From an uncultured Lachnospiraceae bacterium (GTDB lineage: Bacteria > Bacillota > Clostridia > Lachnospirales > Lachnospiraceae): a stretch of 42,383 bases of DNA. Shown here one piece after another: positions 474-3,130 of this stretch. Position numbers and translations under genes: made by a program. The DNA is taken from assembly GCA_947567595.1 (NCBI GenBank), contig CANOMQ010000036.1:1-42383 (forward strand). Reading direction: 5' to 3'. The notes beneath the pieces are model-generated. The model was not told the origin of the DNA. It worked only from the letters and a program-made list of their open reading frames with translations, and made no database searches. Position 1 is the stretch's first letter; every line of letters starts with the position of its first letter.

Positions 474-575
474 TGTCAGGGCAGGTCTTTTAGGGGTTGC
501 CGGGAAATGGTTATCGTTTTTGGTACTGCTTATCTTGGGATGGGAAGATTTTCGAGATGGGCGGTATTTTTTTAT

Positions 576-648
576 GCTCCATTAGCTCAGTTGGTAGAGC
601 ACTCGACTTTTAATCGAGGGGTCATGGGTTCGAGTCCCATATGGGGTA
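576..648 (+). tRNA. tRNA-Lys (TTT)
   Basis: A complete 73-nt cloverleaf: acceptor GCTCCAT/ATGGGGT, D arm GCTC-AGTTGGTAGA-GAGC, anticodon arm CTCGA-CTTTTAA-TCGAG with anticodon TTT, T arm ATGGG-TTCGAGT-CCCAT, discriminator A. The acceptor stem holds two G-U type pairs (first and third), slightly weak but compatible with function. No CCA is encoded. The XRE gene starts 44 nt downstream. Confidence 0.93.
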
Positions 649-691
649 TTTACCGCCTGATATGGAAGGTTTGATAGCAGGGGGTGAGATA

Positions 692-943
692 ATGAATTTG
701 CCAGTTATTGATATGGTTAAGACAGGTCAGAATATTAGCAGGCTGCGTAGGCAGGCGGGATTGTCGGTGAGGGATTTGCAGGACATTTTTGGGTTTGCGA
801 CACCACAGGCAATTTACAAGTGGCAGCAGGGGGTGGCTTTGCCGACGATTGACAATCTTGTGGCTTTGGCAGCAGTTTTGCAGGTGCGGCTGGATGATAT
901 TTTGGTTACGGATATGGCGGAGCAGATACAGCTTGGCGCGTGA
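692..943 (+). CDS. Small XRE-family helix-turn-helix protein
   Basis: An 83-aa single-domain DNA-binding protein. The helix-turn-helix runs from about residue 11 (GQNISRLRRQAGLSVRDLQDIFG) through the recognition helix PQAIYKWQQGVALPTIDNLVALA. No partner domain is present, so it is probably a small transcriptional regulator. The frame stays open into the tRNA-Lys gene; ATG 692 is chosen because it follows GGGGGTGAG (679-687) and starts just before the fold. No antitoxin partner gene is visible. Confidence 0.8.
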   Translation: MNLPVIDMVKTGQNISRLRRQAGLSVRDLQDIFGFATPQAIYKWQQGVALPTIDNLVALAAVLQVRLDDILVTDMAEQIQLGA

Positions 944-1001: not shown

Positions 1002-1026
1002 GGACTCCTTAGTCTAAAGGTTAGGA
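1002..1026 (+). other. Possible 5' fragment of a tRNA gene
   Basis: GGACTCC followed by TTAGTCTAAAGGTTAGGA has the look of an acceptor strand plus D arm of a Glu/Gln/Gly-type tRNA. No anticodon arm or matching GGAGTCC strand follows; the sequence runs directly into the tRNA-Tyr gene. It could be a truncated tRNA left by recombination within the cluster, or chance similarity. Confidence 0.35.
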
Positions 1027-1028
1027 AT

Positions 1029-1164
1029 GGATGGGTATGCCTAGTGGTGAAGGCAGCGGATTGTAAATCCGTTACACAGAAACATCGCAGGTTCGAGGTC
1101 TACGTTCCGCTTCGGTCGGCGCAGGACAAACGTCCACTGGACGTTTTGCGCCCTGCCCCATCCA
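1029..1164 (+). tRNA. tRNA-Tyr (GTA) interrupted in the T loop
   Basis: Acceptor strands GGATGGG (1029-1035) and CCCATCC (1157-1163) with discriminator A1164 enclose a D arm (GCC...GGC), an anticodon arm GCGGA-TTGTAAA-TCCGT with anticodon GTA (1063-1065), a 14-nt variable region and a T stem GCAGG (1087-1091)/CCTGC (1152-1156). Between the strands of the T stem there should be a 7-nt loop. Instead there are TTCGAG plus about 54 extra bases (1098-1151). Removing them would give an ordinary tRNA. Either this copy is a pseudogene, or the RNA is processed in an unknown way. Confidence 0.7.
1098..1151 (+). repeat. Palindromic insertion inside tRNA-Tyr
   Basis: The inserted segment can fold into a long hairpin: GGCGCA, a 4-nt bulge, AAACGTCC, loop ACT, GGACGTTT, TGCGCC. 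It also contains a second GCAGG (1121-1125) that could compete with the tRNA T stem for CCTGC. The form is that of a REP- or MITE-like palindromic element. No other copy was seen in this window. Confidence 0.6.
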
Positions 1165-1170
1165 CTATAT

Positions 1171-1255
1171 GTTTGCGTGTCCGAGAGGTTTATGGTGCCA
1201 CTCTGCTAAGGTGGTGTGCGGTAACGCACCGAAGGTTCGAATCCTTCCGCAAACG
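1171..1255 (+). tRNA. tRNA-Ser (GCT)
   Basis: A class II tRNA with acceptor GTTTGCG (1171-1177)/CGCAAAC (1248-1254), anticodon loop CTGCTAA (anticodon GCT), a long variable arm with stem GGTGTGCG/CGCACC-type pairing, T arm GAAGG-TTCGAAT-CCTTC and discriminator G. It starts 6 nt after the interrupted tRNA-Tyr, so the two are probably co-transcribed. Confidence 0.93.
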
Positions 1256-1326
1256 CTCATAAAAATATGTGTAGCTTTTTAATAAGACATAACTTTTGTC
1301 AAGAAAAGATTTGAGAAAGTGCTCAC

Positions 1327-2525: not shown

Positions 2526-3130
2526 CTATACGGTTACTGCTTCGTCCTGAAGGCGAAGAAGCTCTGCCTCGGTCATGCCGGTAACCTCCATGATGTCGAT
2601 AATGTCAATATCGCGTTTTAACATTTTTCTAGCCATTTCCGTTCTCTCTTTTATGGAAGTTTCCCGTGCTTTTTGATTTCCATATTCGATTTTTTCTTTT
2701 TCATAGAGCAGTCCTAATTGTGTCATGTTAATTCTCCTCCTTATTTGGCTTAAATAGTCTCTGTTAATAAATTTATCACTTGCCACAATCACACCGGAAA
2801 GGGCGAAAATTCGCTGTTCTGTGTCTGCAATCTGCTCCGCCAGTCCCACGACTTTTCCAGCATTTCCTGTTTTCCTTCGGAGCCGGAAACGGTCAAGGGC
2901 AGGATAATCAGCTTCATCAGGTCATTATCATCGAGCGCTTTACCGGAGTGGATTTTCTGCAAAATCGCACGATATGCGGCTTCTCCGTCTATGTGGGACA
3001 AAGAAGCCTGCTCTGTCCGCAGTGTAAGGCATTTTGTCTCAAAGGTTGCTGCTGCGCTTTTTACATCACCTGTATAGATGACAATTAAGCGCAGGTCAAA
3101 ATTTGCGTCTTCCTTGTAGTATTTTTCCAT
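2526..3130 (-). pseudogene. Rpn-family nuclease/transposase-like gene, truncated and frameshifted
   Basis: Two overlapping frames together read like the middle and end of an Rpn (recombination-promoting nuclease, PD-(D/E)XK) protein. The first frame (3130 to about 2850) has NFDLRLIVIYTGDV and DLMKLIILPLTVSGSEGKQ. The second (about 2849 to 2526) continues with VVGLAEQIADTEQRIFALSG and MTQLGLLYEK. A single-base shift near 2850 breaks the frame. The N-terminal part with the nuclease core, roughly 110 residues, is absent. Two degraded relatives (27239-28346 and 42008-42229) and one intact member (21134-21970) lie in the same window. Confidence 0.75.

Follow-up and report, generated by a model that had tools for sequence, protein, structure and literature searches.

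The tRNA-Tyr(GTA) gene at positions 1029–1164 of the window (the whole 42,383-nucleotide stretch of DNA analysed here) is split in its T loop by 54 nt. We think it probable that the insert is a copy of a short (52–55 bp), non-coding, palindromic and dispersed Lachnospirales DNA element that moves as DNA and has a strong bias for the TTCRA of tRNA T loops, that it has landed between positions 59 and 61 of a dispensable tRNA gene, and that the resulting tRNA, most likely inactive or impaired, is not restored by splicing. Copies of this element form a family with a defined structure, an exact position in the T loop, empty sites in relatives, recurrent insertion, and members outside tRNA genes.

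A hairpin element splits a tRNA-Tyr gene

Aside from the insert, the cloverleaf of the tRNA-Tyr gene is intact, and every stem pairs: the acceptor stem (GGATGGG/CCCATCC) at 7/7 positions, the D stem (TGCCT/AGGCA) at 5/5, the anticodon stem at 5/5 (one of them G-U) around the loop TTGTAAA, and the T stem (GCAGG/CCTGC) at 5/5. The 5' part of the gene (1029..1097, forward strand) comprises the acceptor 5' strand, the D and anticodon arms, the T-stem 5' strand and TTCGAG (T-loop positions 54–59), and was assigned from its structure and from 90–92% identity to uninterrupted tRNA-Tyr genes of the same genus. The 3' part (1152..1164, forward strand), assigned by stem pairing, holds the T-stem 3' strand CCTGC, the acceptor 3' strand CCCATCC and the discriminator A. 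Between them, directly 3' of TTCGAG, lies the insert (1098..1151, forward strand), which occupies the place of tRNA position 60, a T in uninterrupted relatives that is absent here. Alignment, covariation and a covariance model define it as a GTCT-tagged palindromic element with a conserved GTCTACGTTCCGCTTCGGTC followed by the hairpin GCGCA..AACGTCC-ACT-GGACGTT..TGCGC. The observation that a hairpin element interrupts this gene is thus confirmed, as is the original prediction that the cloverleaf otherwise fits, with GCAGG and CCTGC separated by TTCGAG plus 54 nt. The hairpin of about 14 bp that it also described does fold on itself, not as a single 14-bp stem but as an outer stem of 4–5 bp (GCGCA/TGCGC) and an inner stem of 7–9 bp around CCACTGG.

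Genes interrupted in this way escape tRNA finders: neither ARAGORN nor Rfam detects the tRNA-Tyr gene, each calling only its neighbours, tRNA-Lys (575–649) and tRNA-Ser (1171–1256), and a permissive Rfam scan recovers its D and anticodon arms alone, at 24.9 bits against a cut-off of 29.

Empty sites in relatives and the accessory tRNA cluster

Some part of the window region is matched in 11 of 60 genomes, its own included. When an uninterrupted tRNA-Tyr gene was used as the query, 8 of 38 genomes of the genus matched, the window's own by its first 69 bases only and the other seven with an unbroken gene. The window gene differs from each of these seven relatives at 6 or 7 of the 69 positions, and no difference breaks a pair, since one D-stem change turns T-G into T-A and the others fall at unpaired positions. 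The interruption of tRNA-Tyr itself was found in the window's genome only.

As comparison of clusters across genomes shows, the gene is a member of an accessory and partly deleted tRNA cluster with the order Lys-HTH-Glu-Glu-His-Tyr-Ser, in which the members that carry the element vary between genomes. We call the cluster accessory because its type of tRNA-Tyr occurs in 8 of the 38 genus genomes and a separate, core tRNA-Tyr in 30 of the 38. The cluster opens in the window with an intact tRNA-Lys(TTT) (575..649, forward strand; ARAGORN, and Rfam at 71.8 bits), followed by a gene for a Cro/C1-type HTH protein (641..943, forward strand; Pfam HTH_3, E 3.5e-08), which is given from its first possible start and so overlaps the end of tRNA-Lys; its true start may be further in. 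A similar reading frame is seen by eye between tRNA-Lys and tRNA-Glu in two relatives (L035 and L037). Next comes a truncated 5' remnant of tRNA-Glu, 25 nt long (1002..1026, forward strand), which abuts tRNA-Tyr and was recognised by comparison with the cluster of genome G010, where two tRNA-Glu genes and a tRNA-His gene occupy this site. Relative to G010, both tRNA-Glu genes (save the remnant) and tRNA-His are therefore gone from the window. An intact tRNA-Ser(GCT) (1171..1256, forward strand; ARAGORN, and Rfam at 48.3 bits) closes the cluster.

The core tRNA-Tyr clusters with Phe, Met, Thr, Val and Asp in genomes G010 and G028. A search for another tRNA-Tyr, which had been proposed as a check, found this core gene in 30 of the 38 genus genomes and yielded none in the window's own incomplete assembly of 99 contigs. 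That absence is weak evidence, because tRNA-Phe, Asn, Asp and the ordinary tRNA-Ile are missing there too; the search scored 150 of 174 candidates and gave 33 tRNA matches, of which ARAGORN typed 31, one was cut by a contig end and one was an odd tRNA-like stretch. A locus of the same genome (G000 C32:13243) that we considered as a second interrupted tRNA was rejected. It holds two adjoining stretches that resemble tRNAs (L055, about 640–915), uncalled by ARAGORN and immediately ahead of a protein-coding gene; they may be tRNA-mimic RNAs, and the protein encoded after them resembles by eye the DUF2828 protein of L323. The latter locus (G070) also holds a small gene of the Cro/C1-type HTH kind (2744–3028) among tRNA genes near the DUF2828/DUF7788 gene (Pfam).

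Several tRNA genes elsewhere carry inserts of other kinds or at other places. Unrelated short hairpins sit between the D and anticodon stems of accessory tRNA-Lys in L036, L041 and L212, and in L041 and L212 the same gene also holds the T-loop element. Another unrelated short hairpin lies in the D arm of a tRNA typed as Cys by ARAGORN and as tRNA-His by eye (L040, 1407–1499). A weak copy of the element itself (30.1 bits) is found in the anticodon arm of an accessory tRNA-Ser of G028 (L223, 465–518), where tRNA-Lys of the same cluster is interrupted as well.

The element is a covarying palindrome

The element consists of a near-invariant GTCTNCGCTYCGCTYCGGTC and then a two-part hairpin with strong covariation. 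We delimited 101 copies among the 124 listed matches to a junction pattern (the remaining 23 were dropped because they lacked a clear hairpin), and 94 of these 101 copies, delimited with both hairpin arms, are 52–55 nt long. The alignment holds 47 rows, made up of the window copy and 46 of the 79 non-identical copies of 52–55 nt, with 33 of the 79 left out. Within it, the TCT of the GTCT tag is invariant and its G is present in at least 90% of rows, which had been picked with a pattern that itself holds RTCT. Paired bases fill 98.0% of the 705 alignment cells, a rate that partly follows from selecting copies with a hairpin and that none of 500 shuffles matched. Two-sided changes occur in 10 of the 15 pairs and in 91 cells, values again reached by 0 of 500 shuffles, and the number of pair types was reached by 5 of 500.

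The two main stems (12 pairs) are almost devoid of G-U, at 3 of 550 formed pairs with 14 cells unpaired; the acceptor stems of 160 tRNAs from these loci have G-U in 76 of 1087 formed pairs, with 33 unpaired. The short 5' helix of the element does hold G-U, one of its pairs being U-G in 19 of 47 rows, and across all 15 pairs together G-U makes up 22 of 691. Substitutions in the main stems exchange one Watson-Crick pair for another on both sides, with G-U nearly absent, a pattern that points to a palindrome kept as DNA, not RNA.

No Rfam family covers the element in the window, either at the gathering score or in a permissive scan; none covers it at the gathering score in 15 further loci, and a permissive scan of one locus with the element downstream of a tRNA gave weak matches only, far under their cut-offs. 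The window copy, itself one of the 47 rows from which covariance model R1 was built, scores 70.7 bits with that model. In L315 (501–628) and L208, by our reading, a second copy of the element sits inside the hairpin of the first.

The element recurs across the Lachnospirales

A 26-base pattern spanning the junction of T loop and element matches at least 119 stretches of public genomes, at least one of which (L108, Bryobacterales) lacks the element and matches by chance. The titles of the 119 listed stretches are mostly those of Lachnospiraceae or its genera, in places with several stretches per assembly. The pattern occurs in 5 of the 38 genus genomes (own included) and its reversed control in 0 of 38, so the interruption is no product of chance. 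Viral contigs gave 0 matches, on which count spread by viruses was rejected. Cultured strains carry the same T-loop interruption (strain COE1, L149, in tRNA-Glu; Acetatifactor muris DSM 23669, L180, in tRNA-Lys), and an eroded form of it is present in [Clostridium] aminophilum (L140).

The covariance model, for which a limited number of candidates was scored so that all totals are lower bounds, gave at least 12 matches in 10 of the 38 genus genomes, a count on which we rejected a high-copy repeat within the genus. Among 16 genomes chosen for holding the element, it found at least 1 to 27 matches per genome, and at least 17 in the complete genome of strain GAM79. Several dispersed copies per genome are thus present, as in miniature elements of the MITE type. 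An even draw across the order, under stricter filters, placed the element in at least 32 of 295 genomes and at least 21 of 130 genera.

T loops are a preferred but not exclusive site

Same-genus genomes hold the element at the identical T-loop position in tRNA-Glu(TTC) (G010 and G015) and tRNA-Lys(TTT) (G021 and G028), and more widely it is found there in tRNA-Glu(CTC) as well (L110, L112 and L151). The 124 listed matches were selected by a T-loop pattern and are non-independent, several coming from one genome or cluster. Among them, 24 split a gene that ARAGORN recognises as a tRNA once the site is emptied (Lys 9, Glu 9, Leu 2, Ser 2, Pro 1, Phe 1; by our reading the Phe case and one of the Ser cases are tRNA-Lys genes bearing a second insert), with examples in tRNA-Pro (L121), tRNA-Leu (L211), tRNA-Ser (L142) and tRNA-Lys (L365). 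A further 60 follow an intact tRNA at 40–130 nt, 23 neither split nor follow a tRNA, and 17 belong to neither class and have no measurable element. The idea in the original prediction that a palindromic element tolerating tRNA genes had inserted is well supported by these recurrent cases and by the empty sites in relatives; indeed, the search of related genomes that it proposed revealed a recurrent family with repeated insertion at the same T-loop position.

Loci found with the model across the order give a different measure of this preference. After one of 29 was dropped for lying too near its end, 7 of 28 loci were by our reading tRNA-associated, six with an ARAGORN tRNA within 400 nt and one by a copy of a tRNA 3' end, and 21 of 28 were not at tRNAs; among model-found copies of the genus, we read 7 of 12 as tRNA-associated. 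Since tRNA genes make up a tiny share of a genome, 7 of 28 is a strong bias, and the element is therefore a dispersed one with a tRNA bias and not an intron restricted to tRNAs. TTCRA stands directly left of the element at 14 of 58 sites (shuffled mean 0.26), a figure biased by the choice of genomes through a T-loop pattern, and in its place we use the model-found samples. A preference for T loops, as had been proposed from the site of the insertion, is accordingly supported, but exclusivity is not. Copies outside tRNA genes do exist, as a refutation of the proposal would have demanded, but the lack of target preference that should have gone with them was not found.

Other sites are varied. 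By our reading, a tRNA-Leu of G065 carries one copy in its T loop and a second, in inverted orientation, in its anticodon loop; a tRNA of GAM79 (L269) has a single copy, also in the anticodon loop. In seven loci (L116, L170, L174, L197, L206, L218 and L219), six of them from one assembly, the element lies within a conserved non-tRNA stretch and is followed, where a contig end does not cut the sequence, by ATGAATGAGGGATTTAGGGAG; this stretch could be part of a leader region or of a larger repeat. At L361 (G342), the element stands beside an apparent tRNA-Met 3' end copied in inverse orientation, in two tandem units.

Copies downstream of intact tRNAs are linked to tRNA 3' ends

The intact tRNA upstream of the 60 listed downstream matches is Gly(GCC) in 31, Leu in 24, and another in five, one of which (L213) is by our reading a split tRNA-Ala instead. 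The sequence 3' of the element matches the 3' end of the upstream tRNA in the 47 of these 60 cases that could be measured: over 12 nt, 25 are perfect, 14 have one mismatch and 8 have two or more, compared with averages of 5.1 mismatches for pairs of different isotype and 2.1 for the same isotype at another locus. For 35 of 41 cases the exact match ends no more than 2 nt from the end of the tRNA, and in three it runs 6, 8 and 30 nt further. An inverted T-loop/element start, matched over 10 nt with at most 2 mismatches, lies upstream in 14 of 47 cases, against 1 of 47 for shuffled spacers.

A copy of the 3' end is present downstream of 52 of the 227 distinct tRNAs in the loci we fetched and missing from 175, which shows linkage and not a rate because the loci were fetched for holding the element. 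The element was found in 50 of the 52 copies by script and in the other two by reading (one inverted, one a variant). Where the tRNA matters, we infer, insertion either goes together with a duplication of the tRNA 3' end or survives only alongside one. Duplicated 3' ends of the kind left at attachment sites are confined to this downstream class and do not accompany the window gene, and the T-loop copy starts 40–130 nt past the tRNA, too close for an integrase gene to lie between.

Probable movement as DNA in trans

The mechanism that best fits is that of a small palindrome of DNA mobilized in trans. The element would move as DNA, its strand probably folding into a hairpin on which some enzyme acts in trans, and the T loop may serve as its target because the sequence there is near-constant and lies at the tip of a hairpin. 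The hit in the window would have been tolerated because the tRNA cluster it struck is accessory and partly deleted. Comparison of filled and empty tRNA sites shows one base (position 60) replaced and no duplication, and at the tRNA sites we looked at, neither a target-site duplication nor a terminal repeat could be defined, the only repeat being the internal hairpin. Flanks of 58 sites, left after 27 of 85 copies were merged as near-identical, hold complementary runs of at least 7 in 12 cases, compared with 268 of 3306 mispaired controls (13 of 10000 permutations), but runs of at least 8 show no clear excess (3 of 58 against 112 of 3306); insertion at hairpin tips in general is thus weakly supported.

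Mobilization by a Y1/RAYT transposase, as in a REPtron, was rejected, since 0 of 19 Y1 loci (two of them overlapping) hold the element within the gene and up to 1.5 kb on each side. Y1 genes were detected in 9 of the 11 genomes examined, and no match to Y1 was obtained in two genomes rich in the element. Similarly, a larger element sharing the 5' end was set aside, as no recombinase was recognised by eye in the reading frames beside 8 truncated copies.

Fate of the interrupted tRNA

The product of the window gene is more likely inactive or impaired. A dead gene is plausible because the copy is accessory and its cluster has suffered deletions, although all of its stems are intact; intact stems together with 6–7 pair-preserving differences fit a gene that is not long dead, or is still used. 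It is tempting to speculate that the mobile palindrome uses T loops as a safe harbour, either as an extra arm at position 60 of a functional, unspliced tRNA or through an insertion that duplicates the 3' end and leaves an intact tRNA upstream. We regard this as unlikely on present evidence. If true in either form, mobile DNA would have a novel means of residing within essential RNA genes, and the former would add to bacteria a tRNA with an additional arm borne on its T loop.

That the window tRNA works unspliced is rather improbable when taken by itself. Here the hairpin would form an extra arm at the looped-out positions 59–60, pointing off the body of the tRNA and stacked on the T stem. Positions 59–60 are looped out of the T-loop fold of tRNAs, which is why tolerance of an insert is conceivable. 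The insert exactly replaces position 60, leaving TTCRA and all stems of the window gene intact; the 3' strand of the element directly abuts the 3' strand of the T stem; the empty site is still readable by ARAGORN as a tRNA in 24 listed pattern matches; and all pairs are kept despite the 6 or 7 positions at which the gene departs from each of the seven relatives. Against this, the unconstrained fold is predicted to be more stable (−54.9 kcal/mol) than the cloverleaf plus hairpin (−45.5 kcal/mol), many of the affected genes belong to the accessory cluster, and some interrupted tRNAs are eroding (the T stem of L140, by our reading) or carry a second hairpin insert (L041 and L212). An intact tRNA also stands just upstream in 60 of the 124 listed matches (Gly(GCC) in 31 and Leu in 24).

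Less probable again is that the insert is a scar, or the remnant of an attachment site, left by some larger integrative element with a use for the 3' ends of tRNAs. The 60 of 124 listed matches downstream of an intact tRNA favour it, as do the 3'-end copies, 39 of 47 of which have at most one mismatch in 12 nt (8 have more; different isotypes average 5.1), and the exact match that, like an att block, stops at most 2 nt from the tRNA end in 35 of 41. However, no integrase was recognised by eye among the reading frames beside 8 truncated copies, and copies of the element stand by themselves in T loops and at unrelated sites too.

Removal of the insert as an RNA intron, through splicing or RNase cuts that would give a spliced or nicked tRNA, is very improbable. 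T-loop introns exist in archaea, and the precise position and stable hairpin would suit one. Nevertheless, no group I or other Rfam intron family matches at the gathering score or at E<=10, 54 nt is too short for self-splicing, copies lie outside tRNA genes, and the main stems are almost without G-U, unlike a structure maintained at the RNA level. We therefore rejected a splicing intron, and the new mode of RNA processing that had been suggested at the outset has no support, given the copies outside tRNAs, the one that we read as inverted in an anticodon loop, and the DNA-like changes of the main stems. An assembly error in the metagenome bin, least probable of all, would suit a genome that is in 99 contigs and lacks some essential tRNAs, but junctions of the same kind occur in cultured-strain genomes and several independent assemblies, the tRNA-Tyr junction itself being in the window only.

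Comparison with known systems

These results delineate a compact repeat family with strong covariation, present in Lachnospiraceae and relatives, that splits tRNA genes repeatedly at one nucleotide and links a short palindrome to 3'-end copies beside intact tRNA-Gly and tRNA-Leu genes. These loci are natural test cases for whether a tRNA can bear an extra arm at position 60, and for how very small palindromes move with no transposase in sight. A description of the element was absent from the open-licence literature searched, and a T-loop insert is not mentioned in the available text of PMC7609411.

Several known systems share some of its features. Archaeal and eukaryotic tRNA introns and bacterial group I introns likewise lie inside tRNA genes, but the element matches no intron family, occurs outside tRNAs as well and evolves as a DNA-type palindrome, and a group I intron is far longer than 54 nt. 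MITEs are small, non-coding, dispersed and presumably moved in trans, and the element resembles them in each of these respects; it may differ in its ends, since at the tRNA sites compared neither terminal inverted repeats nor a target-site duplication could be defined, and no parent transposon was found. The palindromic elements of Rickettsia insert in genes of that genus and are tolerated there. Judged by description only, the present element is alike in being a palindromic repeat tolerated in genes, and is set apart by its frequent site, the tRNA T loop.

REP elements, as described in the available text of PMC3733652, fall into GTAG and CGTC superfamilies of 20–40 bp with an unpaired tetranucleotide tag at one end; some families are reported within other palindromes, and CGTC REPs are said to have no dedicated transposase. 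The element is similarly short, palindromic and dispersed with an unpaired tetranucleotide tag at one end, but is 52–55 bp long, not 20–40, and tagged GTCT instead of GTAG or CGTC (PMC3733652, same text). It further differs in the at most 27 copies seen per genome, its Lachnospirales hosts, its bias for tRNA T loops, and the lack of a RAYT/Y1 gene found beside it. Finally, integrative elements leave a partial copy of a tRNA 3' end beside the complete tRNA gene, according to the available portion of PMC9897764. A partial copy stands beside a complete tRNA here too, but some 100–200 nt away and not kilobases, and with a palindrome in its T loop.
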